DNA of 64,000 bases from Bolinopsis microptera (taxonomy: Eukaryota > Ctenophora > Tentaculata > Lobata > Bolinopsidae). The position numbers and the translations under genes were made by a program. The stretch covers positions 7,288,726-7,352,725 of the forward strand of contig NC_087074.1 of assembly GCF_026151205.1 (NCBI RefSeq). Direction: 5' to 3'. Shown here piece after piece: positions 21,383-58,805 of the stretch (within the stretch, counting starts at the first letter, position 1; each line of letters opens with the position of its first letter). The notes beneath the pieces were generated by a model. The model was not told where the DNA came from and did not search any database. It saw only the letters and a list, made by a program, of their open reading frames with translations.

Positions 21383-22568
21383 CTGAAGAATTAGGAAATC
21401 TTTAAACAGCAATTCGTTTGGACTACCTTATTAAGAAGTTATTGTGAGTACCAATATCCTCAGTTTTCATTCTACAGTTTTCATAGCACAGTTAATTCAA
21501 ATTTAAAACACAATATGCGAAAAATTAAGTATTCACATAATCCACGGTTTTTCGAGGAAATGATTGCTACCCAGACTCTTGCGGTTCATGTCTTTTCGTA
21601 CCACGAATTTTCCTTCTTGATTCTAAGCTCAATACTAATTCAAATTGTTATCAGTCATTAGAGTTAACGTTAAAAATTCGCCTCATCAACAAACTATGAA
21701 GCACAATGCACATTGTACAATGTACAATGCACATACTGTGTAAACTCTGCAAAATAAATATTGAACCAAAACAGTTTTGAGTTTGTTTGGTAAAATAACT
21801 TTATACTGCTTATGTTCAAAATATTTTGTAAAAACGTCAGTTTTCGATTAATAATTGTTTCAACCTTTAGTAGCTGAAAATGGCTTGTCTCTATGATGTC
21901 TACTACAAAATATGCAATATTTCTAAATTATAGTTAGCTATTTTGCAATCCGCTATACCAATATTAATATAACTCTGCCTTCAATGAAAGAATTGGATTT
22001 TATCTCATTCAGAGGACAGATAAAATTATGACCACTTTATTAAGTTACTAGAGAACCCGTGGTCGCAGGGAGGAAGCTAATAGTATTTTTTGTTAGTAAG
22101 TTTAAATCGCGTCAAAAAATATACTACACAACCGAAGATACAGCCGATTAAAATGTTGCTCGCACTAAACACAACGTAATATCAACAAAACTGATAAAAA
22201 TGCCCTTCTAACAATCTTTGCACGTGCACGTGCGTGTTAAACCCTCGTTACCATGGTTACTTTGCAACCTTAAGCTTTTTACCTAAAGCAAAGTAATTTG
22301 CACGTGGGTGGTTTACAGACAGACATTCTACAAAAAGAATCTTTTGAATTATAATATTGATAAATAACAATATGCTAACTATCCTAAATCCCATATCCTA
22401 TACCTCTATACTATATATGTAATGTGTTATATTATGTTAAATAACACACTTGAAATTTAGACATAAAAACACGTAATCACGAGCTTACGAGAGAATCAGC
22501 AAGGTGGTTTATTCATAAATTAGAGTTATTGTTACTTTGTTAAACCAATGCTTGTTGTTATTAGTCAC
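21383..22568. other. R1 intron, with the empty site for the R2 composite
   Basis: Non-coding. At about 22175-22200 the sequence aacgtaatatcaacaaaact is intact; in R2 the same point carries a 4.2 kb insertion flanked by TA (34130-38323). This segment is therefore the uninterrupted reference. Confidence 0.75.
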
Positions 22569-22876
22569 CTGGTTGTGCTCTGTAGTAATCAGGTGCTGTG
22601 GAAGTTAACTTTATCTTGCTACGTCTTTACTCCAGTACGTGCTCCAACTACCGTCTATACACGTTGTGTCTGAGAACAGGATGTTGAGCACCTCCACCTC
22701 GTTACAGTGTATCACTAGTCGGACACCTGCAGTTCTGGTTAGAGTGATGCGCCAAACCTTGTCAGTAGGAGAGGGGGGATTAACAGGGAAGTTAGTGTAG
22801 GATTCGTCGCACCAGTTGAGACGGTAGTTTAGACTTTTAGAGTAGTGGAGAAGTTGAGGTCGACTATTCCTACATA

Positions 22877-24062
22877 CCTTAGTTCCCAAAAATTTGTGTG
22901 CCATTATATTGAGCACAATTTATTTGAGCCCGAAAAATTTGGGCAGAAAATTTGAACTCATTTGGGCGACCGAAAATTTGGGCACAAATTCTTCGAAAAA
23001 TGAACGATTTTCCACTAAAATTTCAGTTAGATATTTGCCAATTTTAAGCATGTAGGTGGTAGTCTGAGTTGTTTCACATTATGAAATTTACGATCTGCCC
23101 AGTAACTACTAAAAAATACAGTGATGATGGCACAGTACAAAATGATAGATATATAATAGTGATATTTAGTCTCTCAATCAGATAGTTTAGTCTACTTACA
23201 CTCAGCATATCTTATCATACCCCTTTCACATACAATTATCATTATGACGCCTCACCAGATGGTCGAAAGGTTTGGAAGAAAATTAGAAGGTTTACATCAT
23301 GATCTATCAAACTAAGCGGCACATACGCTTAGCTTTGGGGAAACAAAGGTGTACAAAATTGTGTGTTGCGCATGGGCTACATCACCGGGGGGCAGGGGGG
23401 GCAGCTGCCCCCCTGGGATTTGGGGGACAAGTTTACAAAAACATGAAAATGTATTCTTCAACATAACATTAAACCAGACGGCTATGGTATACAGTTTTGT
23501 TTTCGCACCCACTGCTCTGTAGCCCCACTGCACTGTAGCCCCCCCCCCCCCCTACATTGTGTTATCTTTAAATACCTTGCCAGTTACCACGAACAATGGA
23601 TGAATTCCGTGTATGTACTGTCAAGCTTAAATTCGGACTACTTACATTAATTTGCTTTTTCTTTTAGTTGCTGCTAACGTAAATTCGTGTCCCTCAAGTA
23701 CTGGAAAATGCGTCAAAATTGTCTAATTTCCTTATAACTTTTCCGGGGGGCTTCGCCCCCCTATCCCCCCGACAAGGGGCTCCGCCCCTTGACCACACTG
23801 GGGGCTGCGCCCCCAGACCCCTGCTACTTGGTCAAGCCATGAATGACAGATTAGAAAACTAAAATTTCAAATATTTTTTCACTTGGATATGAAGAAAAAG
23901 CCATCTTTCTATAGATTTCAGGGCCACAGGCCAAATGCCAAAAGTTTGGTTGGCAAAAAATTTAGCAGGCGGAAAAGATTTATGCAATTAATTTGGTCTG
24001 CAAAAAATTTGGGCGAGAGGCCCGCTCAAATTTTTGGTCGCCCCAATTTTTGGGAATTAAGG
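22877..24062. mobile_element. DNA transposon with TA target duplication
   Basis: 1186 bases inserted in the R1 ectodomain exon. Ends are CCTTAGTTCCCAAAAATTTG and, in reverse complement, CCTTAATTCCCAAAAATTG, i.e. terminal inverted repeats of about 20 bases, flanked by TA on both sides (22875-22876, 24063-24064). TA duplication indicates the Tc1/mariner superfamily. No transposase frame was seen, so it is probably non-autonomous. The phrase aaaatttgggc recurs inside both ends. Confidence 0.8.
23741..23825. repeat. Three GC-rich hairpins in a row
   Basis: GGGGGCTTCGCCCCC, AAGGGGCTCCGCCCCTT and GGGGGCTGCGCCCCC follow one another inside the 22877-24062 element, each a stem with a 3-5 base loop. 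They stand out from the AT-rich surroundings. Confidence 0.85.
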
Positions 24063-25194
24063 TACTCTCCCCCAGCAGAGTAACATCTCACTATCGCATT
24101 ATCGCCACTCCCCAGCACACTATTAGTTTTAATTTCTAAAGGTGTCGACTCAAGATCCCACTCTATTTCCACATCTCGCTGCACTGGTAACCAACCTGTT
24201 AATTGTATGTTTAACTCATGACTACTGAGCAACGATTCATGTTATCATGAATTTAAGGAGGAGGTGTTCAGTGTTGTAGCAAAATTGTAAAGGAATTGTA
24301 AGAATTTCGCCAATAATTTATTCTCAGAATTTAAGGGCCCGACCATACCATGACTTTTGTCACCATGACTGTTGTCATGTCAATCAGTAAATTCAGTTTC
24401 TAGCTTCTTTACAAGACGTCGTATTGTCCTATCATCAAGTTTGCTGTAGCAAACGCCTAGCACTTGTCACTCTGCCTCCACAAATCCAATAAGTCCTCAC
24501 AATATCAAGTTTTGTTTTTTTGTGAACCCCATTTTTCTCAAAATTCGACTTTTTGGAACAGAGCCAAACAAATTAACAAAGTTGAATCGCTGGAACAAAT
24601 GAGCTTAAAAAATTAAATTTGTAAGCTTTATGAACTAATGCCAACCGATAATGGGCATTTTGCTCCTTTATAAAAAATTTTATTGTTTGTTAAAATCAGG
24701 ACATTATTTTTGAAACACCCTGTAGTGCGGTCAGAATGCCAACAGGCACGACAGTCATGACCAGAGGCACCTAGTGTGTTTAGAGGGCGTGCAAAGGATA
24801 CGTGACAACTCCTCAGGCACATCGGGCACGTCTTTTCAAATGCCGTGCCTAGCTAAAAATCCGTGCTTGACGTGACTGCAGGCACAGTCTGTTTAGTACT
24901 TGTGCCAACACTCAACAGTCATGGATAACGCGACGTCACGATTACCTTATAAGGTCAATATTTTACGTGATATGGACATTGGCAGCACAGACTTACAAAG
25001 TGCAATTGCAAAAATAGTACAGACAGATCCGTCTGAAAAATCGATTTACTGACACAAGAAGCTTCCGAAGGATTTATGATGTTTTTAGGTTCAATTTTTA
25101 GGTTTCATTCGGTTAAATGAGTAAAACTGTAACACTTACCCTAGCGAGAACGAGAAATTATACCAACTTCCTTATATGGTCATATCACGTGATC

Positions 25195-25344
25195 GTGAAC
25201 TTTTCATGGTTTTGAATGCCTTTGAGCGTTCATTTTAATGTTTGTTTAAAATTATATGTCCGTTTCTTTTTTCTTTTTAAATTTTTTTATTAAAAATTGT
25301 GTTTTATTTCACACAATGTCCGGTCAAATAACGTCCGATAAGGT
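25195..25344 (+). mobile_element. Relic of a pogo-like right end
   Basis: Contains tggttttgaatgcctttgag followed by tgtccg phrases and an end aacgtccgataaggta, matching the right terminus of the pogo-like elements at 35644 and 38323. The same relic lies at the same place in R2 (to 41062) and R3 (to 58783), so it predates the tandem duplications. Confidence 0.65.
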
Positions 25345-25366
25345 AAAGTTAAACATAGAAACATAC

Positions 25367-30276: not shown

Positions 30277-30778
30277 CTGGAATTATAACGTTACAAATCA
30301 TAGTGGAAGATAAGAAAATCGTTATTATATAATAGTACTTAAGTACACTTCAGATGTGTAACATTAACATTCGATTTAAAACAATATGTGAAAAATTAAA
30401 TATCCACACAACCACTGTTTTTTGATAGAATTATTACCACCCAGACTCTTACAGTTCTTGTCTTTTCGTATCACAAATTTGCCTTCTTGAATCTAAGCCA
30501 TATCTGGCGCCCTAATCCAGGGTTGGGAAAAACGCAAATGGAATCTTTAAAAAACGCAAAAAATGCAACTTTTTCCATTTTCTTAAAAAACGTCAAAAAA
30601 ACGTTCAAAAAACGTTCTCGAACCCAAATCAAACCTGATATAATGATATCCCGCCAAATATGAAATAGCTAGACGTGTACACTGTACTGTGTATTTACTA
30701 TTTAAAGAAGTCTTCTAGAATGTTCGCTTGAATGTTATGACAGATATTTACTAATCCACAGTTCAAATCTTTGACTAT

Positions 30779-31103
30779 TTTTTTTTTTTTTTTAAGAGAG
30801 GCTGGGCCAAGATAGCCCACGAGAGGATAGCATTGAGATGCTCTGCCTACCTCTGGGGTGTGGCAACCTTGGGGAAGGTTGCCGGTGAAATCAGAGTGAT
30901 TGGTGGAGGATGGTGTAAGATGATATATGAGTCAAAATGATACGCTTAAATGCCAGCTGGGTTTGGAAAAGTAAAACGAGACGAGACAGCATATGAGATA
31001 ATACTTTAAGTCACCCCGGTCTGATCCAGCTCTTCCGGCACAATTAAGCGTTTGGTGCGGTTTGCGAAATTGACAATTGTGGTGATGTGTTGGTTGTCGA
31101 ATA
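30779..31103 (-). mobile_element. Poly-A retroposon (SINE or LINE tail), copy 1
   Basis: 325 bases on the minus strand ending in a run of at least 15 A (T on plus), flanked by the 14-base target duplication AAATCTTTGACTAT (30765-30778 and 31104-31117). Near the 3' end are the hairpins GGCAACCTT/AAGGTTGCC and TGGGC/GCCCA. No coding frame. Target-primed retrotransposition is clear; the family is not identified. It sits inside an older insert rich in AAAAAACGCAAA phrases. Confidence 0.8.
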
Positions 31104-32622: not shown

Positions 32623-32948
32623 TTTTTTTTTTTTTTTTAAGAGAGGCTGGGCCAAGATAGCCCACGAGAGGATAGCATTGAGATGCTCTGCCTACCTCTG
32701 GGGTGTGGCAACCTTGGGGAAGGTTGCCGGTGAAATCAGAGTGATTGGTGGAGGATGGTGTAAGATGATATATGAGTCAAAATGATACGCTTAAATGCCA
32801 GCTGGGTTTGGAAAAGTAAAACGAGACGAGACAGCATATGAGATAATACTTTAAGTCACCCCGGTCTGATCCAGCTCTTCCGGCACAATTAAGCGTTTGG
32901 TGCGGTTTGCGAAATTGACAATTGTGGTGATGTGTTGGTTGTCGAATA
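32623..32948 (-). mobile_element. Poly-A retroposon, copy 2
   Basis: Same retroposon as 30779-31103 with the same 14-base target duplication (32609-32622, 32949-32962). Identical flanks show it was copied by tandem duplication, not by a second insertion. Only the poly-A length differs appreciably. Confidence 0.85.
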
Positions 32949-33229
32949 AAATCTTTGACTATGAAATTGTAAATGTAGTTGAAATTAAGAAATGTTTAAC
33001 ACCCCTGCTTGCGTGATGTTCAGAAATTTGTTGATTTCTGGCATTTTCAAAACTTTTTTTCCTAAAAAAACGCAAATTCGTCTTTTAAAAAACGCAAAAT
33101 TCATTTGAACTACCTTATTAAGAAGTTATTGTGAGTACCAATATCCTCGGTTTTCATTCTATAGCACAATTAATTCAAATTTAAAACCTAACCATAATAT
33201 TAAATATAAGCTTTATAAAGTTATCTTAC

Positions 33230-33325
33230 CACAGGCTGTTTTGTCAGAGTTTGGTGTCGATCCAGCGTCACATGTCTCACAGCTTGTCATAGCATCATTC
33301 CGATATGTTCCTTCCCCACACGGCT
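33230..33325 (-). CDS. R2 cysteine-rich exon, type B
   Basis: 96 bases, phase 1-1. First cysteine-rich exon of R2 in transcription order, directly downstream of the pogo composite, so it is the natural splice partner for the F5/8C exon at 35726. Confidence 0.8.
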
Positions 33326-34129
33326 CTGGAATTATAATGTTACAACTGGCAAATCGTAGTGGAAGATAAGAAAATCGTTATTATATAAGTACTTAAGTAA
33401 AGTTCAGATGTGTTACAATAACATTAGATTTTTTAAAAATATGTGAAAAAATTAAATTTCCACATATTCCACGGTTTTTCGAGGAAATTATTTCCAGCCA
33501 GATTCTTGCAGTTCATGTCTTCTCGTACCACGAATTTTCCTTCTTGATTCTAACTCTAAGCCCAATACTAATTCAAATTGTTATCAGTCATTAGGGTTAA
33601 CGCTAAAAATTCGCCTCATCGACAAACTATGAAGCACAATGCATATTGCATAATGCACATACGGTGTAAACTCTGCAAAATAAATATTGAACCAAAACAG
33701 TTTTGAGTTTGTTTGGTAAAATAACTTTATACTGCGGACTGCCTATGTTCAAAATATTTTGTAAAAACGTCAGTTTTCAATTAATAATTGTTTTAACCTT
33801 TAGTAGCTGAAAATGGCTTGTCTCCATGATATCTACTACAAAATATGCAATATTTCTAAATTATAGTTAGCTATTTTGCAATCCGCTATTGCCAATATGA
33901 TTATAACTCTGCCTTCAGTGAAAGAGTGAATGAATAGGATTTTATCTCATTCGGAGGACAGTAATTGATAAAATTATGACCAAGCTTTGATAAGTTACTA
34001 GAAAACCCGTGGTCGCAGGGAGGAAGCTAATAGTATTTTTTGTTAATAAGTTTAAATCGCGTCAAAAAATCCTACACAACCGAAGATACAGCCGATTAAA
34101 ATGTTGCTCGCACTAAACAGAACGTAATA

Positions 34130-35644
34130 CCTTATCGGACCTTATTTGGACGGACATTACTTGAACGCTGGAGGCCCTAGCGTTCATCTTAATGTCCGTT
34201 CAAATAAAGTCCGTTCAATTAATGTCCGTCCAAAATATAGTCTGTTGAAATTTTTTCAAACATTTTTCCATTTCGAACTTTTTGTCCAGAATATGACAAC
34301 TTTGAAAACTTTATTGTGCCGTAAGTTAACGACGGAAAGGTTCTCCTTGGTCTGCCGGAGGCACAGCAAACTCTACTAGTATATGATGTTTTCAAGGGTC
34401 ACTTTGCGGAAAAAAGTCAACAAAATTATGGCACTCAACAACATAGTTCATGAACTAGTCCCCGCCAACATGACAAACTTGTTCCAGCCTCTAGATATTA
34501 CGGTAAATCGTGTTGCCAAGGACATTATCCGACGTTGTTATCTATACTATAATTTAAACTTGACGAAATTTCCCCGGCAACGGGGACATAGAAGAAAAAA
34601 CACCGAAAATCGACCTCAAAATGACCCTCTGGTGAAATCAAACCCAGCTCGCAAATGGAGTTGAAACCTCGCCATTTTTAACAGGGTTGTAGAAAAAGGA
34701 TAGGAATAGGCTATAGCATTCTTAGAATTTTGATTTAGGCTTTAGATTTTTTATAATTAACGTCGGAAGTGAGATTAAATAATCGTTAGAATAATGGCGT
34801 TATTTTAGCAAAGGTTTACTGCGCTGTTGCGTAGCAACGATAAAAATGCACGTGCGCGAGCAAGAACATCTTAACTTCTTAACTACGCGCGTTGTTATGC
34901 TGTATGCTACGTCATAACTTCAAAACTAGCTCACATTTACGCTCACGCTATGACTTATATTCATAACTTTGGTTGTGATTGGTATTTTTTGATGCGGTAA
35001 AAAGTATCGTTTTGGGAATCCGAATACTAACAACGCTGTCGCCATTCTTAAATAAATTACATTATGTCTACTGTATAACAGAGCTGTATGATGAAGAGAA
35101 ATTAAAACATAACTGATTTTTAAAATTTCCTCGAACAAAGCTTTCGACTAGCGGGTTTCTAGTAGTTCATATTACTGAGGGGAGGTAATGAAACAGTGCT
35201 AGGAAAGCTCTACGTGATGTTAAGGTTAACCTAAAGTTGTCTAAGATAAAACCACTTCACGCCGAATGGCTTGTAAAAGTTAACAATGAAATGCAGGACC
35301 GGGGTAGTTTGATAAAAAAAGATTTCCACAAAGCTAGAAATCACTGATGCTTGTTTAAGCATGGACTATTTCATGCACGAAAACCCATTTAATGAAGATG
35401 ATGTGTGATATTAGACACTGATCATGTACACATATTTTAACATTTTTACTGCATAATGACTGCTTTTCTTACTTACTGTATGAAAAATGGATTAAAAAAT
35501 CATTTGCTGAAATTTTAAAAAAATCAAAAAATTGAAAAAAATTCGGATTTTTTATGGTTTTGAATGCTTTCGAGCGTTCATATTAATGTCCGTTCACAAT
35601 TATGTCCGTTCATGTAATGTCCGTCCAAATAAGGTCCGATAAGG
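34130..35644 (+). mobile_element. Pogo-like element with transposase remnant
   Basis: Terminal repeats CCTTATCGGACCTTATTTGG and its complement, TA flanks, and internal TGTCCGTYC repeats near both ends. Plus-strand transposase fragments at about 34290-34540 include LLVYDVF-like, VPANMTNLFQPLDITVN and VAKDIIRR, the DDE_1 motifs of pogo/Tigger transposases (the second and third catalytic Asp lie in YDVF and QPLD). An insert of about 620 bases interrupts it (about 34543-35162). Inactive. Confidence 0.75.
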
Positions 35645-35725
35645 TATACATTATATATATAGAACATAATGAAAAAGTTGTAAAAACTGTAAAAACTGTA
35701 CACATTAAATTACTATAATACTTAC

Positions 35726-36172
35726 TAGAAGGAGAATAAAACACATCAATCTCTGCGAAAGACAATGTATATGGTGCCGTTTTATCCCTATCGGTCATCA
35801 TAACCTGATCTCCAACAAGATTGCAATAGAATGTGTATGTTTGATCCTCTACTGTTTTTGAATTGCTATTAACAACAATGACTCCACATAGAGATTTTTC
35901 ACCAGTTCCTGTGTTGACGACATTTACCTCAGTGTTGCTAAGTATATTCCAGCAACAGTTGATCCTATTGATGACTACTATCTTTGTGATGGAATATATC
36001 TTTCCAAAATTAAATTTCACCCAGTTCTCTTTACTAAAATCACCGCCATCTTTTGGGGCATATATGGTGTTCACGTCATCATCATACGCTTTTTCTGGCT
36101 TCCGCCCGCCCGCGCTCGGATGAATGCTCTGTGCCTCTGACGATACTATTGTTATCGGCTGGTCAGTTCCCT
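35726..36172 (-). CDS. F5/8 type C (discoidin-like) exon inside the composite
   Basis: 447 bases (149 codons), phase 1-1; acceptor cacttatttcag, donor gtaagtatt. Begins GTDQPITIVSSEAQSIHPS, then AYDDDVNTIY, WVKFNFGKIYSITKIVVIN, and ends YTLSFAEIDVFY, the order of a discoidin/F5/8C lectin-like domain (Y.A.DG..., W..V.LG....I..V.I..R, E..V). Such domains bind glycans or phospholipids extracellularly. Only R2 has it. It points the same way as R2 and is in the phase needed to splice to the exon at 33230. Confidence 0.75.
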
Positions 36173-36226
36173 CTGAAATAAGTGTATCTATTATAATGTC
36201 AAAATACTGTAATAAAAAGCATCAAC

Positions 36227-36460
36227 CTCTTATATTTATGCAAATATTCTCTCTGTAAAGTAAGGAGAAATTTAACGGGTGATACTCGTAAAATATCTGT
36301 TCCATATATTGACCGTCGACGAGTCCAACTCGGCGCGCGTCCTGGTAGGTTGTAAACCTACAAGGAGAAATATCTGATGAAACCATTTTTAGAATGATAC
36401 TACGCGTATTATTTTTGCATTTGGACCACCGATGTTGCTGCGCAGTAAAGCCAGGCACAG
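36227..36460 (-). CDS. Unknown exon upstream of the F5/8C exon
   Basis: 234 bases (78 codons), phase 1-1; acceptor tttatgtgccag, donor gttgatgc; the following intron is only 54 bases. Encodes AVPGFTAQQHRWSKCKNN and SPCRFTTYQDARRVGLVDGQ, with three cysteines. It reads in frame from the signal-peptide exon at 37250 into the F5/8C exon, so the three look like the 5' part of a separate secreted-protein gene. Domain not recognised. Confidence 0.6.
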
Positions 36461-36624
36461 CTGGCACATAAATGAAATATTAGGAGCAAGAAAAATAATT
36501 TCTTGGTTGAACTAGAACTGGTAAAATAGTAGTTATAAAAGTATAAAGTGAGTAACCTTAATACCATTTGCCCCAATGATCAGTACTCTGACTCAGTAGG
36601 AAATACAAACTAGACAAATAACTA

Positions 36625-38323
36625 CCTTATCGGACCTTATTTGGACGGACATTCAATGAACAGACATAATTATGAACGGACATTAATATAAACGCTAGAA
36701 GGCATTCAAAACCATCAAAAATCCGAATTTCTTTCATTTTTTTGACGTTTTTTATTTCAGCAAATGATTTTTAAATCCATTTTTATACAGTAAGTAAAAA
36801 AAGCAGTCGTTACGGTTGAGCAGTAAAAATGTTAAAATATGTGTACATGATCAGTTTCTAATATCACAAATCATCCTTATCGATTGGGTTTTCGTGCATG
36901 AAATAGTCTATGCTTAAAGCATCAGTGATTTCTAGCTTTATGAAAACTTTTAAAAAAAATCAAACTACCCCGGTCCTGCATTTCAGTGTTAACTTTTACA
37001 AGCCATTCGGCGTGAAGTGGTTTTATCTTAGACAACTTTAGGTTAACCTTAACATCACGTGGAGCTTTCCTAGCACTGTTTCATTACCTCCCCTGCGTAA
37101 TATGAACTATAACAACGTCGGACAATGTCCTTGGCAACACGATTTACCGTAATATCTAGAGGCTGGAACAAGTTTGTCATGTTGGCGGGGACTAGTTCAT
37201 GAACTATGTTGTTGAGTGCCATAATTTCGTTGACTAACTAAAAACCAACCTGCAGCTGACGAAGAAGCTATCAGACCAAGAAGAATTGTTGCCCGCATCA
37301 TTGTATAAATATACATCCTAAATTTAAAAATCGATGTGACAACCGTAATTTAGTTGGTTGGTTTTTGAACAGAATAAATAATTTGCATAACTTATAACTT
37401 TATAAGCACAAAATTATGAAACCCCGATAAGTTTGATCGAGACAAAAATTATACTTCTTAAATGCTAACAAGGCAGAACTTTTCGAGCTCTGTTCAACAA
37501 AGAAAAAAAGACACGGATATATTCCACTTGGTAACGTCTAATCTTGTCCTCCAATATAATTATAATAACTTTGTTCGCCATATTAGAGTGTTGCTACAAC
37601 TTTGAAAACTTTATTGTGCCGTAAGTTAACGACGGAAAGGTTCTCCTTGGTCTGCCGGAGGCACAGCAAACTCTACTAGTATATGATGTTTTCAAGGGTC
37701 ACTTTGCGGAAAAAAGTCAACAAAATTATGGCACTCAACAACATAGTTCATGAACTAGTCCCCGCCAACATGACAAACTTGTTCCAGCCTCTAGATATTA
37801 CGGTAAATCGTGTTGCCAAGGACATTATCCGACGTTGTTATAGTTCATATTACTGAGGGGAGGTAATGAAACAGTGCTAGGAAAGCTCTACGTGATGTTA
37901 AGGTTAACCTAAAGTTGTCTAAGATAAAACCACTTCACGCCGAATGGCTTGTAAAAGTTAACAATGAAATGCAGGACCGGGGTAGTTTGATAAAAAAAGA
38001 TTTCCTCAAAGCTAGAAATCACTGATGCTTGTTTAAGCATGGACTATTTCATGCACGAAAACCCATTTAATGAAGATGATGTGTGATATTAGACACTGAT
38101 CATGTACACATATTTTAACATTTTTACTGCATAATGACTGCTTTTCTTACTTACTGTATGAAAAATGGATTAAAAAAATCATTTGCTGAAATTTAAAAAA
38201 AGTCAAAAAATTGAAAAAAATTCGGATTTTTTATGGTTTTGAATGCTTTCGAGCGTTCATATTAATGTCCGTTCACAATTATGTCCGTTCATGTAATGTC
38301 CGTCCAAATAAGGTCCAATAAGG
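36625..38323. mobile_element. Rearranged pogo-like fragments, inverted then direct
   Basis: 36625 to about 37230 is an inverted copy of the right part of the element (right terminus reading CCTTATCGGACC, then the transposase C-terminal motif on the minus strand). About 37590-38323 is a direct right half, with the same DDE_1 motifs and a right end AATAAGG then TA. Between them is non-transposon DNA with the signal-peptide exon. The head-to-head right ends suggest a double-strand-break or template-switch event. Confidence 0.7.
37250..37301 (-). CDS. Signal-peptide exon inside the composite
   Basis: ATG at 37301, 17 codons plus one base, donor gttggtttt (phase 1). Encodes MMRATILLGLIASSSAA, a compact signal peptide. 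It joins in frame to the exon at 36227. With its own start it could give an alternative first exon for R2. Confidence 0.6.
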
Positions 38324-39373
38324 TATCAACAAAACTGATAAAAAATGTCGTTCTAACAATCTTTGCACGTGTACGTGCGTGTAACAACCCTTGTTACCAT
38401 GGTTACTTTGCAACCTTTTGCTTTTTACCTAATTTGCACGTGGGCGGTCGTACAGACAGACATTCTACAGCAGGGTGTCAGAATTATTGGCGTGTTTGAA
38501 ATTTTATGTGTATTTTATGATGAAATCGATATTTTTCGACGGGTCATAACTTTACTTCTGAATATCGAAATTACAAAATTCAAAAACTGGTCTGTAGAAA
38601 ATCGTCTGAACTTTTTCTTAATTTCAGAATTTTGTGTTGATGTACCTCAAAACCCATAATTTAGGCCGTTATTTAAGGGGTCGATTCCATACTTGGTTAG
38701 ATTTACGAAGGAGTAAGGGATTTATGTGTAATTTTTTTTCGATGAATTTTTTCTGAAATTATTCTTTAGTCTTAGACTAAAGTGCACAGCTCTTCAGGCA
38801 ATAGCGAAACATATAAAAAAACTATAGATTTTATAAAAGCTCTCTTTCTCCTCTAACTGACGCAATAAAATTTAGTCGGGCGGACTCATCCCGGAATTCA
38901 GAGGAAGCAGCCGAAGACTTCAAACCAATAATCTAAATTTTTCTCTTTCGTCGTGATTATCGACGAAATTTAACTTCTTTCGGACTTCGTTTTTAAACTG
39001 AACTGTAATATAAAGGATTATCTCTCGAATGATCAAGACTCCATAGGAAACTGACCCTCAGAAGTCAAGTAATGATCTTTTCTGAAAGCTTAGGTAAGCT
39101 AAAATTGTACGCAAAATTGTCTACGCGCCAATAATTATGACACGATGCTGTACGAAAAGAATATTTTGAATTATAATATCGATAAATAACGATATGATAA
39201 CTATCCTATATCCCATATCCTATATATGTGTTATATTATGTTAAATAACACACCTGAAATTTAGACAGAAAACACGTAATTAGGAGCTTACGAGAGAATC
39301 AGCAAGGTGGTGTATTTATAAATTAAATTTATATTGTTACTTTGTTAAACTAATGCTTGTTGTTGTTAGTCAC
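38324..39373. other. R2 intron, non-coding
   Basis: Resumes the R1-like intron sequence (atcaacaaaactgataaaaa, then a CACGTG-rich stretch near 38365-38445), followed by AT-rich DNA without a supported exon. Confidence 0.5.
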
Positions 39374-39812
39374 CTGGTTGTGTTCCGTAGTAATCAGATG
39401 CTGTGTCGGAGGAAGGGAACCTTATCTTTGCTACGTCTCTGTTCCATTCAGTGCTCCAACTACTGTCTATACACGTTGTGCCTGAGAACAGGATGTTGAG
39501 CACCTCCACCTCGCTACAGTGTATCACTAGTCGGACACCTGCAGTTCTGGTTAGAGTGATGCGCCAAACCTTGTCAGTAGCAGAGGGGAGATTAACAGGG
39601 AGGTTAGTCCAGGCTGTGCACCAGGGTGAGATAGTATCGTGGAGTAGATTTGAACCAGAGGTAGACTACTCCTGTATACTGATCTCCCCCAGCAGAGCGG
39701 AGGTGCACTACCACAATATCGTCACTCCCCAGCACACTATTAGTTTTAATTTCTAAAGGTGTCGACTCTAGATCCCACTCTATTTCCACATCACGTTCGA
39801 CTGGTAACCAAC
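39374..39812 (-). CDS. R2 ectodomain (GWLP) exon with +1 frameshift
   Basis: Homologue of the R3 exon 47731-48165: GWLPVERDVEIEWDLESTPL, then LEIKTNSVLGS, and further on TDKVWRITLTRTAGVRLVIH and NRDVAKIRF. It is 439 bases instead of 435: one extra codon and one extra base (three G instead of two on plus at about 39630-39632) just before the conserved tryptophan, which shifts the frame. Either a real lesion or an assembly error. Acceptor and donor are intact and phase 1-1. Unrecognised extracellular family. Confidence 0.65.
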
Positions 39813-40440: not shown

Positions 40441-40969
40441 ACTCATAGTACGGTCAGATGTAATACCAACAGGCACGACAGTCATGACCAGAGGCACGTA
40501 GTGTGTTTAGAGGGCGTGCCAAGGATACGTGACAACTCCTCAGGCACGACGCACGTCTTTTCAAATGCCGTGCCTAGCTAAAAATCCGTGCATGACGTGA
40601 CTGCAGGCACAGTCTGTTTAGTACTTGTGCCAACTGTCATGGATAACGCGACGTCACGATTACCTTATATTTATAATAGTACCACGATTACCTTATATAG
40701 TTATAATATTACCTTTACAATATTTTACGTGATATGGACATTGGCAGTACAGACTTACAGAGTGCAATTGCAAAGATAGTACAGATAGATCCGTCTGAAA
40801 AATCGATCCACTGACACAAGAAGCTTCCAAAGGATTTATGACGTTTTTAGGTTCAATTTTTAGGTTTAATTCGGCTAAATGAGTAAAACTGTAACACTAT
40901 AACCCTAACGCGAACGAGAAATTATACCAATTTCCATATATGGTTATATCACGTGATCGTGAACTTTTC

Positions 40970-41063
40970 ATGATTTTGAATGCCTTTGAGCGTTCATTTT
41001 AATGTTTGATTAAAATTGCATGTCCGTTCACACAATGTCCGGTCAAATAACGTCCGATAAGGT
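40970..41063 (+). mobile_element. Relic of a pogo-like right end (R2 copy)
   Basis: Same relic as 25195-25344, ending tcaaataacgtccgataagg then TA. Shared by R1, R2 and R3. Confidence 0.65.
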
Positions 41064-41085
41064 AAAGTCAAACATAGTAACATAC

Positions 41086-47222: not shown

Positions 47223-47730
47223 TACTGTGTAAACTCTGCAAAACAAATATTGAACCAAAACAGTTTTGAGCTTGTTTGGCAAAATACCTTACTGCTTAGT
47301 GCTTATGTTCAAGATATTTTGTAAAAAATCAGTTTTCAATTGATAATTGTTTCAACCTTTAGTAGCTGAAAATGGCTTGTCTCCATAAAATATGCAATAT
47401 TTCTAAATTATAGTTAGCTAATTTGCAATCCGCTATCGCAAATATGATTATAACTCTGCCTTCAATGAAAGAATGTGATTTTATCTCATTCGGAGAACAG
47501 TAATTGATGAAATTATGACCACTTAATTAAGTTATAAATAAAAATAAGCTAAGAATCCTATATCCCATATCCTATATGATATATATGTGTTATATTATGT
47601 TAAATAACACACTTGAAATTTAGACAGAAAACACGTAATCACGAGCTTACGAGAGAATCAGCAAGGTGGTTTATTTATAAATTAGAGTTATTGTTACTTT
47701 GTTAAATCAATGCTTGTTGTTATTAGTCAC

Positions 47731-48165
47731 CTGGTTGTGGTCCGTAGTAATCAGATGCTGTGTCGTAGGGAGAATGGAACTTTATCTTTGTCACGTCATT
47801 GTTCCAGTACGTGCTCCACCTACTGTCACTACACGTTGAGATCAGTTTGTTGATCACCTCCACCTCGTTACAGTGTATCACTAGTCTGACACCTGCAGTT
47901 CTGGTTAGAGTGATGCGCCAAACCTTGTCAGTAGGAGAGGAGAGATTAATAGGGAAGTTATTGTGGGATTGTTCGCACCAGATGAGTATGTATTGTGGAG
48001 TAGAGGTGAAGAAGAGGTAGATTGCTCCTGCATGCTCTCCCCCAGCAGAGTAGAAGTACACTCTAACCTGATCGTCACTCCCCAGCACACTATTAGTTTT
48101 AATTTCTAAAGGTGTCGACTCAAGATTCCATTCTATTTCCACCCCTCGTTCGACTGGTAACCAAC
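47731..48165 (-). CDS. R3 ectodomain (GWLP) exon, intact
   Basis: 435 bases (145 codons), phase 1-1; acceptor catacaattaacag, donor gtgactaat directly after CCAG. Begins GWLPVERGVEIEWNLESTPL, followed by LEIKTNSVLGS, SAGGEHAG, IYLFFTSTPQY, TDKVWRITLTRTAGVRLVIH, CNEVEV and ends DTASDYYGPQPG. Mostly beta-strand-like with about three cysteines. I do not recognise a named family; similar W.I...R....L.I.CN.VEVL motifs occur in uncharacterised invertebrate secreted proteins as far as I recall. It joins the signal-peptide exon directly in phase 1. The stop just past the donor is intronic. Confidence 0.75.
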
Positions 48166-48837: not shown

Positions 48838-49358
48838 TATGTTTAACTCATGACTACGGAGCAACAATTACGTAACAACTCCTCAGGCACGTCTTTTCAA
48901 AAGCTGTGCCTAGCTAAAAATCCGTGCCTGACGTGACTGCAAGCACATTCTATTCAGTACTCGTGCCAATATGGATAACGCGACGTCACAATTACTTTAT
49001 AAGATTAATAGTTTACGTGATATGGACATACCTTATCGGACCTTATTTGGACGGACATTACTTGAACAATGGAGGCCCTAGCGTTCACCTTAATGTCCGT
49101 TCAAATAAAGTCCGTTCAATTTATGTCCGTCCTAATTAAAGTCCGTTGAATTTTTTTCAAAAATGTTTCCATTTCGAACTTTTTGTCCAGAATATGACAA
49201 CTTTAAATTTCAGTAAATTTCAATAGCTATCATTAGACTAAACTATATCGTTGAATCAATGAAAACAAGTAATTATATGTACTTTAAAGATCTAAATTGT
49301 AAATATCACATTATATGGCATGACCACTATCTTGATCTAAATTTTTTTGCTCATGCAG

Positions 49359-49626
49359 TTGATCTACGAGGGAAAAACAAAGCAATCACTACTTATTCCT
49401 AAATATACATTTCCGAAAGACTTTGAGGTTATTTTTAACGAGAAACATTGGGTAAATGAATCTACAACAATACATTTTATCAAGAACATCATAGTGTCGT
49501 ATGTTAATGACGAAAAGGTTCTCCTTGGTCTGCCGGAGGCACAGAAAAATTTGTTAGTATATGATGTTTTCAGGGCCGGTCACTTGACGGAAAAAGTCAA
49601 CGAAATTATGGCAGTCAACAACATAT
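49359..49626 (+). pseudogene. Pogo-like transposase exon (DDE_1), partial
   Basis: Acceptor tgctcatgcag then LIYEGKTKQSLLIPKYTFPK, NEKHWVNESTTIHFIKNIIV and LLVYDVFRAGHLTEKVNEIM. The order matches pogo/Tigger-type DDE_1 transposases: Q.IY.GKT, HW.NE.T...F....I.PY, then D in YDVF.G. Broken at 49626 by an insertion; an extra codon in FRAGH compared with the other copies. Confidence 0.75.
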
Positions 49627-49795
49627 AGCTGCAAGATTTAAGTGTATATTGGTTTATACTTTTATACCAAGAGCAGCCTTATTAGATTTCCTCATCATCT
49701 GATATTGATCAAATAAGCTCATCTGCACAACAGTTAACTCGTATGTTAGGCATTCCTTTATTGAAGTCTCTCTATCAGCAACCAAGACTAGACGG

Positions 49796-51175
49796 TTAAA
49801 ACACTTCAACGGATCGACTGCAATGCTTTCTTAGTTGTGTCAAATTCTTTGCTTTACCTTTGATACTTATCTTATCGATGAATGTCAACCCATCTAGCTC
49901 ACGTTGAAGGACAGCCCCAACGGCCAAACATTCCTCGGGATTCACCTCATCGTTCCCAGGCTGTGATATAAGACCAGTCGACAAAGATATTAACTTAGTC
50001 TTATCTTTGGATTCTGTAAAGTCGACAGTAACTTTAAACCAAGTTAATAATTTTCCAAATACATCACAGTTTTTCTTGATTGATGACTTGGTAAGTGGAT
50101 GGCAGCTTTAGTTGGTACTCCTCGCTTCGATGAATTAGCTAATGAATCTCCAAAAGACTGATTTATTAAAGCCATCTGATTCAGGGTGGCCACCCATAAC
50201 TTGTGAGCGGACTCACGATTACGCATCCTTCCACTTGTTAATCCACCACTAGATTTAGCTGCCCTCATAAGACTCTGCTCTATGGAGAGGTCAGTCCACA
50301 CTCCGGCCCACTCGTGGTCGTTGTAACAAACCGTGTGAAGCCCAGTTACTTTAAAGGTCTTTCAAAGCGCCCCATACTTGACTTTAAAAATAGCATCCTG
50401 CTCCAAATACAATCTTAAAGCTTTTGCATACTGTCCCCTCCCAGCTGCTGCGAAGTAGGGCAGCATCAAAGCTACTGCTGATAAATGCATTTTGTAGTCG
50501 TGCAACCTCTCTGCTCTTATGAAGTCCTTTACTAGTGTTATCATGTTGTGGTAAGTAAACCATAGAGCTGCTGTTCTACTGTTTGAAAACAGGTTCTTTA
50601 GAAGCAGAGTTATTTTCTCTGATAGATCCTGAATAGATTTAGTCTTAAAGTTAACACCTATATTTTCGTTCACACATTTGTTGATGTAACCTTCCAAGTC
50701 TACTAGTTCATCGTCGTAAACTTCTTCCTCTATAATGAAACAACAAAGAGCAGCGACGATCAGAAAGTGGGCTCTCAACGCTTTATAGTAAGATCCTCCA
50801 TCCGACATATGCGTGACGTCTCCAGGATACACGAGTTTGATGAGCTCCTCTAAACCCGAGTCTGTCATTATATAGCCTATGCAGCCTTACCTGAGGACCC
50901 CAGGCTTTAATGTTGGTAAAACATTCCGAGATTAGGCGGAATGACAGGCTGAGCGCGGCCCAGTAAATGCAGCCAAGAAAACTCGTGAGAGTGTGGAAGC
51001 CCCCAACCCTGACCACAATAGGCATCCCAGTTTCCAGTACTATTCGGGTGGCCTTAATCCACAATGGCAAATCGAATGTGATTATCATCGGCTCACTGTA
51101 GGATAACTTAAGACATTCAACCAGAGTAGCATGTACCGTCGAATAGCTGTCTGGGGGTTGGTCAATAATCTGTTG
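49796..51175 (-). pseudogene. Remnant of an uncharacterised multi-copy invertebrate gene family
   Basis: Consecutive minus-strand frames: MIITFDLPLW and GGFHTLTSFLGC, then DSGLEELIKLVYPG, YKALRAHFLIVAAL, LPYFAAAGRGQYAKALRLYL, then WTDLSIEQSLM and SSGGLTSGRM, then STGLISQPGNDEV. I recall the same motif order in uncharacterised, often multi-copy invertebrate proteins; function unknown. Lesions: an 80-base insert (50887-50966), an in-frame TGA (50362-50364) and a frameshift between 50044 and 49985. It lies inside the pogo-like element, whose transposase it splits. Confidence 0.65.
50887..50966. mobile_element. 80-base insertion with 8-base target duplication
   Basis: Flanked by ATGCAGCC on both sides (50879-50886, 50967-50974). 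Removing it with one repeat restores a continuous frame reading FLGCIGYIM then TDSGLEEL. It begins TTAC and ends GTAA and contains the perfect stem CATTCCG/CGGAATG. An 8-base duplication is typical of hAT elements, though hAT-like ends are not obvious. Confidence 0.7.
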
Positions 51176-52189
51176 TTTGTTAGTTAACCTTGATATTTGT
51201 TAATTGAAGTTATTTCCCGAGTAAGATTTGAAATAAGCGTTAAAAATCGTTCTGAAACTATCATTCCCCTGCCATAATGTGGCCATTGCAGTCATTTTGC
51301 ACTCCCTATGGAAATCTCAAGACCTTCGGGAGCCGAATAACCAATATTAGGGGTGGGGCGTATGGGTTCCTGGAGAAAAATGACTATAAAAATTTTTGCC
51401 AAAAAGTTTCAGCTGGACGGTTTTTTTTTGTGGTTCCTGGGACTATGGACAACACATTCCAGTAGACAAACCTTTGTTACGAATTTGTTCACAGAAAAAT
51501 CAACTCTTGCCCTAACTAATAGTCCATGAGCTAGTCCCCGCCAACATGACAAACTTGTTTCCCATTTCATCCTCTAGATATTACGATAAATCGTGTTGCC
51601 AAAGACATTTTCCGACGTTGTTATAGTTCATATTACTCAGCGAGGTAATGAAACAGATAAGTGGTGGGAAATTTCCACGTGATGTTAAGGTTAACCTAAA
51701 GTTGTCAAAGATAAAACCACTTCACGCCGAATGGGTGGTAAAAGTTTACACTGAAATGCAGGACCGAGGTAGTTTGATAAAAAGAAGGTTTCCAAAAAGC
51801 GGGTATTACTGATGCTTTAAGCATGGAATATTTTATGCCCGAAAACCCATTTGATGAAGATGATATGGAATATTAGACAATAATCATGTTGATGTACACA
51901 TATTTTAACATGTTTACAGCTGATTAAAGACTGCTCTTCTTGCTTACTGTATGAAAAATATATTTATAAATCATCTGCTAAAATTTAAAAACGTAAAAAA
52001 AATGAAAAAAAATTTCAATTTTTGATGGTTTTGATTGTTCAAGTAATTTCCGTCGAAATAAGGTCCGATAAGGTAGTGGAAAACTATGGAAAACTATCAT
52101 GTTTGATTAAACGTTTTAAAGTTAAAAGTTAATGGCAAACTCAAAAGTATTTAATGTCAAATTCAAAAAAGAGTTTATTAAAACTCAAC

Positions 52190-54349: not shown

Positions 54350-55519
54350 TTATAAGGTTTCATCTTCGTGATGCTGGTTACCTTCTTCTCCTGTCCCACC
54401 TGTACTTCCATTGTACTGTCGGTTGAATTCTCCCCCGGATCTTCTTCTCGCCCAGCAGTTAGCTCGTACATGTCCGGTCTTGTTGCAATTACAGCATGTT
54501 ATGTTCTTGTAACTCCGCCATCCGTCTCGTTCTCTATCTTGCACTGGTCTAGGTCTTGACGAGTTTCTGTTATCTCCTCGCCGCTTGTCCCTATTTTCAC
54601 CGGACCCAGATCTCGATCTGTCATCCCCTGTAGGTCTCTGATAAGTAGTCTCTTCTCCCTCCTCACGATTATTTTGCCTTGAAGGCGAGGGGTCGTGGAT
54701 GTTTGGCTTGTCAAAAAATGTCGTTTGTTTCATAATCGAAGCAACGGGAATTTCTCTTTCGTTATCATTCATCATCTTCTCAACGCCTTCTATTTTCTCT
54801 GCCAATTTCACTGCTTCCTCAAATGAAGCAAAGGTAGCTATATTGAGCTGCTGCATCATATTTTTGCTCCTTACTCCTCGTAAAAGAGCCAAAAGACAAT
54901 TGTCTTCCGCCACTGTTACATCCAAGTAAGCTACATTCGACTTCACTCTCAATCGAAAAACGTACTCACCAATATCTTCTCCCTGCCGCTGACGACAGTT
55001 AAGCAGTTCGTTCTTAAGTGTGGTAGCTTCGTTGCCATAGATGGCTCGCTTGTAGAGCGCACAAAAAAGCTCAGGATCTTTTTTCTCCCTATCACTCAGC
55101 TTGACTGCCCTCAATACCGAATAGGTTTTATCGTCCACACTTTGGAGCAAATGCTCATACAGTAATGGACTCTTTATCCTGGTTATTCTCACGTATGAGA
55201 GAAATCTCTCACAGTACATAGAAAAATCTTCTCCTTTTTCAAACCTCTTCAATTTAGCTGCTCGGGATAATTTTGAATTCAAAATTTTCCCTGATCCGTC
55301 AAGATCATTTTCGCTTCCGTTATCCTCCAAATCCGAATCGCCCACTTCCAGCATCTCTTTTTTAATCTTTTTCTCCTGCACTTTGAGCTCTTCCAGTGCG
55401 GTTCTGATTTTCTCTCGTTCAGCTTTGATTTTTTCTCGTTCAGCTTTGATTTTCTCCAACTCCTCTTCTGCTGCAGCCGCTGCTGCAGCCTTTTCTTCCT
55501 TGTCACTTTCGTCAGTCAT
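54350..55519 (-). CDS. gag: Retrotransposon Gag polyprotein
   Basis: 389 codons from ATG 55519, starting about 50 bases inside the 5' LTR. Residues ~15-58: charged coiled coil with repeats of KAEREKI. Residues ~85-245: helical capsid-like region (FEKGEDFSMYCERFLSYVRI, later RQRQGEDIGEYVFRL, LLALLRGVRS). Residues ~270-340: Arg/Ser/Gly-rich linker. Residues ~342-355: CCHC zinc knuckle CCNCNKTGHVRANC for RNA binding. No lesion seen, so Gag could still be made and packaging in trans by a complete element is conceivable. A second frame over the 3' third (54262-54471) may be the start of pol by frameshift. Confidence 0.85.
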   Translation of the reverse strand: MTDESDKEEKAAAAAAAEEELEKIKAEREKIKAEREKIRTALEELKVQEKKIKKEMLEVGDSDLEDNGSENDLDGSGKILNSKLSRAAKLKRFEKGEDFSMYCERFLSYVRITRIKSPLLYEHLLQSVDDKTYSVLRAVKLSDREKKDPELFCALYKRAIYGNEATTLKNELLNCRQRQGEDIGEYVFRLRVKSNVAYLDVTVAEDNCLLALLRGVRSKNMMQQLNIATFASFEEAVKLAEKIEGVEKMMNDNEREIPVASIMKQTTFFDKPNIHDPSPSRQNNREEGEETTYQRPTGDDRSRSGSGENRDKRRGDNRNSSRPRPVQDRERDGWRSYKNITCCNCNKTGHVRANCWARRRSGGEFNRQYNGSTGGTGEEGNQHHEDETL

Positions 55520-58649: not shown

Positions 58650-58783
58650 ACTTCCTTATATGGTCATATCACGTGATCGTGAACTTTTTATGGTTTTGAA
58701 TTCCTTTGAGCGTTCATTTTAATGTTTGTTTAAAATTATATGTCTGTTCACGCAATTTCTGGTCAAATAACGTCCGATAAGGT
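58650..58783 (+). mobile_element. Relic of a pogo-like right end (R3 copy)
   Basis: Same relic as 25195-25344 and 40970-41063, ending aacgtccgataaggta. Confidence 0.6.
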
Positions 58784-58805
58784 AAAGTTAAACATAGTAA
58801 CAAAC

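Follow-up and report, generated by a model that had tools for sequence, protein, structure and literature searches.

How did a cysteine-rich gene unit of the ctenophore Bolinopsis microptera come to hold, at a single TA, exons belonging to two other gene families? The stretch analysed here (the window: 64,000 nucleotides, C3:7288726-7352725, in a 264.65-Mb genome) contains R1, R2 and R3, tandem minus-strand units that carry cysteine-rich phase-1 exons. R2 carries a single 4,194-bp insertion (34130-38323) at one TA, composed of three pogo-like DNA transposon copies, labelled A, B and C, which enclose fragments of two source genes, labelled X and Y. This arrangement would be best accounted for by exon shuffling through a composite transposon (macrotransposon) of pogo-like non-autonomous elements, a reading to which a probability of roughly 0.6 is given. 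The parts of the unit and its borders are as follows, with the strand in brackets where one applies.

34128..34129, left target-site TA on the R2 side, a single TA in R1 at 22180-22181
34130..35644 (+), element A, a complete pogo-like non-autonomous copy with full-length relatives, holding a nested 621-bp element
34380..34541 (+), probable DDE transposase remnant (PF03184, DDE_1) inside A, present also in C and, inverted, in B
34542..35162, the nested 621-bp high-copy element in A, without a counterpart at the same junction in B and C
35645..35646, TA joining A and Y sequence, unbroken in the Y paralogues on C8 and C3
35647..36622 (-), fragment of gene Y, running from the start of intron 2 through the F5/8C exon and part of intron 1 into 5' upstream sequence
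35726..36172 (-), F5/8C (discoidin-like) exon, 447 nt, open, phase 1 to phase 1, splice sites present
36272..36361, high-copy repeat of 90 bp that interrupts Y intron 1
36405..36413, junction at which Y's own signal-peptide exon is missing
36623..36624, TA joining Y upstream sequence and B, unbroken in C8, the only copy comparable there
36625..37235 (-), element B, in the opposite orientation to A and C, with an intact outer end and a truncated inner end
37236..37595 (-), fragment of gene X: about 295 bp of upstream sequence, signal-peptide exon, first few bases of intron 1
37250..37301 (-), signal-peptide exon MMRATILLGLIASSSAA, phase 1 end, donor GTTGGT, matching X
37596..38323 (+), element C, oriented as A, outer end intact, inner end truncated
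38324..38325, right target-site TA on the R2 side, from the R1/R2 alignment

The unit was gained by R2. An initial annotation of this DNA had described pogo-like outer termini at TA and the same site unbroken in R1 near 22180, and both statements hold. R2 33438-34129 aligns with R1 21512-22181 on the left and R2 38324-38469 with R1 22180-22332 on the right, so that R1 is continuous across one TA (...GTAATATCAAC...) and R2 reads ...GTAATA, then the 4,194 bp, then TATCAAC. The unit landed in a dispersed repeat about 290 bp long, common to R1 and R2 and flanked on both sides by R-unit sequence. In a genome search with R1 22045-22335 (the best 40 of 1126 first-look candidates scored, R2 not among them, rows counted by eye), 74 of 77 rows, R1's own among them, spanned the TA position (query 136-137). 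No element was present at this TA in R1 or in any other scored copy spanning it, the copies compared being paralogues within one genome. The target repeat is absent from R3, which, lacking the whole of it, was therefore uninformative as an outgroup.

Four transposon ends of the unit stand at TA, the outer two facing R2 and the inner two facing gene Y sequence, and each has an unbroken counterpart: R1 for the outer two, the Y paralogue on C8 for the inner two, and C3 as well for the inner end of A. Element A sits at a TA in Y intron 2, across which C8 and C3 are uninterrupted, and B at a TA about 3 kb upstream of the Y start codon, where C8 is uninterrupted. Independent TA insertions of the pogo fragments, which the initial annotation would have taken to refute a composite origin, are indeed indicated for the inner elements, yet their TA sites belong to the Y source region and not to R2, and the composite idea is therefore not refuted.

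Elements A and C belong to one high-copy family, which supports the composite reading. Five full-length relatives of A (L002, L003, L005, L007 and L008) measure 895-946 bp, and its first 301 bp gave 40 scored matches in the genome, its own copy included, as the best of 1749 first-look candidates. The ends of A form a 41-bp inverted match of 97.6%, the flanking TA counted in, and the family has the terminal inverted repeats (TIRs) and the TA target, duplicated on insertion, of pogo-like and Tc1/mariner elements. Autonomous pogo-like elements encode a CENP-B/psq-type DNA-binding domain and a catalytic triad. Copies of the present family are non-autonomous and retain what is probably a decayed DDE_1 fragment (PF03184, E=8.7e-4 with 19.3 bits against a cut-off of 22, and E=6.6e-3, both below the curated cut-off), a 49-amino-acid piece of which had 150 scored genome matches including the window's own. 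The nested stretch in A was ruled out as captured host DNA, being a high-copy element found at 40 scored places, this one included, with the others 96-98% identical.

A and C differ at 4 of 728 bases (0.55%), A differs from the five other copies by 2.2-4.3%, and the closest other match to C is 97% (best 40 of 1364 candidates scored). B differs from C by 5.3% and from the five other copies by 4.2-6.2%; as B is no nearer to C than to those copies, an origin of B and C by inverted duplication of one copy is not supported. Pogo-like end fragments also occur at 25201-25345, 40965-41064 and 58685-58784, inside a repeat common to all three R units, which suggests that the family was present in the array before the R duplications. 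A further pogo-like copy, more diverged and with its ends separated by about 3 kb, lies at 49028-52075 and encloses minus-strand open frames.

Between A and B lie 976 bp of gene Y, and the genome search that the initial annotation had proposed for a source F5/8C gene located Y on three contigs (C3:3640243-3640806, 94%; C8:10428168-10428778, 90%; C7:16368515-16369091, 83%), with the additional stretch 36413-36624 aligning at 79% to C8:10431743-10431972. The F5/8C exon has 91% amino acid identity to the C3 copy, and the discoidin-like domain expected in the cargo was recovered as PF22633 (28.6 bits, cut-off 27.8), PF00754 falling just under its cut-off (27.6 bits, cut-off 28.2). Among 171 candidates from a protein database, none was a relative at E<=0.001. 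On C3, C8 and C7 each Y gene has its own signal-peptide exon (judged by eye), the F5/8C exon and then a second exon with weak BLAST similarity to F5/8C, for which no Pfam match was found in the C3 copy. Positions 36405 and 36413 of the unit match C8 positions 2.9 kb apart, and thus Y's own signal-peptide exon is missing from the unit. Just downstream of Y, C3:3641753-3642922 holds an open frame that by eye resembles a reverse transcriptase.

Three same-strand phase-1 exons had been proposed for the cargo. Those at 37250-37301 and 35726-36172 are open and have splice sites; the third, an 'unknown exon' at 36227-36460, was rejected, as it consists of Y intron 1, upstream sequence and, in its middle, the 90-bp repeat.

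The two confirmed exons differ in origin, the F5/8C exon stemming from gene Y and the signal peptide from gene X. Between B and C lie 360 bp of X, copies of which occur at four places (C3:3.601, 3.616, 3.649 and 3.665 Mb; 81-92%; all six candidates scored). The signal-peptide reading of 18 residues, which extends one codon past the exon end and was assigned as such by eye, is identical over 18/18 amino acids to three of the four X copies and 82% identical over 17 amino acids to the fourth, while the donor is GTTGGT in the unit and GTTAGT in the X copies. Open frames nearby in the X cluster match PLAT and, below cut-off, WSC, and probably belong to X. The cargo aligns with its X and Y sources right up to the element junctions, apart from 4 bp beside B. 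Because the X junctions lie away from element ends, with microhomology of 0-1 bp (by eye), the X part looks like a capture inside an element.

The composite transposon is favoured because the ends at TA have unbroken counterparts, the cargo aligns with its sources and the splice ends are all phase 1. The history would have begun when A, a pogo-like copy, entered a TA within intron 2 of a Y copy. B-X-C, in the form of two truncated copies of opposite orientation around the 360 bp of X, would then have followed as a second unit, at a TA upstream of that Y copy, and a deletion of Y's own signal-peptide exon would have left that of X upstream of the Y F5/8C exon. Finally, transposase acting on the outer ends of A (left) and C (right) would have moved everything between them to the TA in R2, so that the X signal peptide, the Y F5/8C exon and the cysteine-rich exons of R2 could be spliced in frame. 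The unit has the build of a macrotransposon, with host DNA enclosed by two copies of one element and the entire structure at a single target site. Cargo and sources (5.3-8.5%) and R1 and R2 (5.6 and 6.4%) have diverged to a similar degree, which is counted in favour of this history, and the difference between A and C is much smaller. Either A and C have undergone recent conversion, or the move itself was recent and the donor Y copy is now missing.

Several observations weigh against such a move. Although the unit is bounded by TA as one piece and its source genes were found, genome searches revealed neither a second composite copy, which had been sought as other pogo copies with the same cargo, nor the donor. 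An element A in intron 2 was present in none of the three other close Y copies, and the site of B could be compared in C8 alone. No excised donor is visible among the three candidates, all of them scored, since all three places with Y's next exon keep the F5/8C exon; loss or an unassembled haplotype may be responsible. The three Y copies were also the sole other protein matches of at least 80% identity among 128 scored candidates. With no second copy and no donor, we infer transposition rather than observe it. Moreover, the near-identity of A and C, set against the greater distance of A from other copies, points to copying or conversion between the two. The ratio of nonsynonymous to synonymous substitution rates (dN/dS) of the F5/8C exon, 0.61 in comparison with C3 with 6 nonsynonymous and 5 synonymous changes on its branch, gives no clear sign of selection either way.

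A separate matter is what the insertion would do to R2, for which two further exons are of importance.

33228..33325 (-), first cysteine-rich exon of R2 downstream of the unit, phase 1 acceptor
39369..39777 (-), nearest upstream candidate exon in R2, with a frameshift and an early stop, its R3 counterpart open (47726-48130)

Phase 1 is shared by the signal-peptide exon (37301-37250), the F5/8C exon (36172-35726) and the cysteine-rich exon that begins at 33325 in R2, and an in-frame fusion of the three is therefore possible as judged from the exon boundaries. Perhaps the unit gave R2 a promoter-proximal region, the X signal peptide and the Y F5/8C domain, and in this way created or rescued a secreted F5/8C-cysteine-rich chimaera of three genes, an outcome that must be regarded as doubtful. 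'Rescued' would be the appropriate word if the frameshifted upstream exon was R2's own. In R3, the frame of this exon stops just beyond a possible phase-1 donor (CAG/GTGACT), and 39369-39777 may thus either belong to R2 as its 5' exon or form the end of an adjacent gene. The R1 counterpart of this candidate exon, at 22614-24160, is interrupted by about 1.2 kb of other sequence.

Alternatively, and with about even chances, the unit is real but inert, leaving every protein unchanged, perhaps in a decaying gene copy. The frameshift in the nearest upstream candidate exon of R2, the interruption of its R1 counterpart, the changed signal-peptide donor and a dN/dS without clear constraint would all fit an inert unit; against it, both cargo exons are still open with splice sites, and all eight R2 exon readings that were checked are open. 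Inertness is compatible with any mechanism of insertion: it bears on function and leaves the mechanism standing.

Of the other routes by which the unit could have arisen, homology-driven gap repair, or ectopic gene conversion, is rather unlikely and is kept in play by how closely A and C agree, by the single copy number and by the absent donor. A lone pogo copy would have resided at the R2 TA, and a break in it would have been mended with a Y/X locus that already bore A and B-X-C as the template, copying entering through one pogo copy and leaving through the other; the same end structure would result with no transposase acting on the whole unit. A and C are indeed far closer to each other than are the other pairs in the comparison, the unit exists in a single copy, and its X sources and best Y match are found on its own contig at a distance of about 3.7 Mb. 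Tan et al. 2021 (PMC8277862) favour gap filling for most single-copy animal Pack-TIRs. Yet the same study found that in 91 of 97 primate cases the orthologous site held a bare transposable element, unlike the TA in R1 and in the other scored target-repeat copies spanning it, none of which has an element there, and it places 56.9% of cases within 15 kb of the source (PMC8277862). A template locus, too, was not found in the genome searches.

An assembly artefact, in which reads of the donor locus were joined to R2 through the pogo repeats, is improbable to a much greater degree. The boundaries are repeats and R2 holds other near-perfect repeats, as such an error would have it, but both outer ends reach R2 at the same TA, R1 showing the expected unbroken sequence, and the cargo, at a distance of 5% or more from the source copies used in the comparison, is no stray duplicate of any of these. 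Loss of the unit by R1 instead of gain by R2 has next to nothing in its favour beyond the ability of Tc1/mariner-type elements to excise, and was rejected on the clean single TA of R1, which bears no footprint, and on the other scored target-repeat copies spanning the place, likewise unbroken, with X and Y sequences moreover matching only X and Y loci elsewhere.

The composite transposon favoured here has its closest known counterparts in the Ac macrotransposons of maize and the Pack-TIRs of animals. In the Ac/Ds macrotransposons, host DNA bounded by termini of one DNA transposon family moves as a unit (PMC9910405), and in R2, too, the host DNA is enclosed by termini of one family. Unlike in maize, the elements in R2 are pogo-like, the targets are TA, the host is an animal and the exons come from two genes, while mobility is deduced from sequence alone. 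Animal Pack-TIRs carry host gene fragments between copies of a TIR element, with parental copies elsewhere and, for some, chimaeric transcripts (PMC8277862). The unit in R2 likewise has gene fragments bracketed by copies of one TIR element and parental copies elsewhere, and the Y part (976 bp) and the X part (360 bp) exceed the 100 bp of non-transposon sequence by which Pack-TIRs are defined. In contrast to Pack-TIRs, there are two sources, whole in-phase exons and a length of 4.2 kb, intact inner TIR ends occupy TA sites of the source region, and the target is free of a bare element in the copies compared. Turmoil-1 of C. elegans, a case of transduplication, is also an animal DNA element with fragments of two protein genes (PMC2572040). 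Its fragments are inside the element's inverted terminal repeats, whereas separate elements bracket the exons in R2. Pack-TYPE transposons capture DNA inside one element and not in a bracket of several. They too are non-autonomous DNA transposons that shuffle coding DNA, in plants rather than in an animal (PMC8903248). What is new in R2 is the combination of two source genes, phase-matched whole exons and inner ends traceable to TA sites of the source. A pogo-type composite with exons of two genes was not met in the titles and abstract openings searched, and a published likeness may still exist.

Mosaic extracellular proteins of animals owe much to exon shuffling, the vehicle of which is seldom visible. 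The composite unit would be a clear fossil of this process, with a possible effect on a gene product. A single genome displays the unbroken site of the target, both inner insertion sites, both source gene families and phase-matched exons, and with all parts readable together, a DNA-transposon route to multi-domain secreted proteins can be put to a direct test with cDNA, long reads and samples from populations.

Some further features were observed around the unit and among the R genes. Immediately to its right in R2, at 38466-39150, there is a second high-copy element with no equivalent in R1. Within the cysteine-rich array of R2, the 300-bp windows 30778-31077 and 32623-32922, 1,845 bp apart, are 100% identical, which reflects either a very recent duplication or an assembly problem. 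Two places about 12 kb apart, C2:19549775 and C2:19561580, match the full 570 bp of R2 left flank that was searched (90%) as well as the R1 target repeat (96%), and are possibly further R-like genes. Elsewhere in the window, a 389-amino-acid open frame at 54353-55519 ends in what by eye resembles a CCHC zinc knuckle, and is probably the Gag-like frame of a retroelement.

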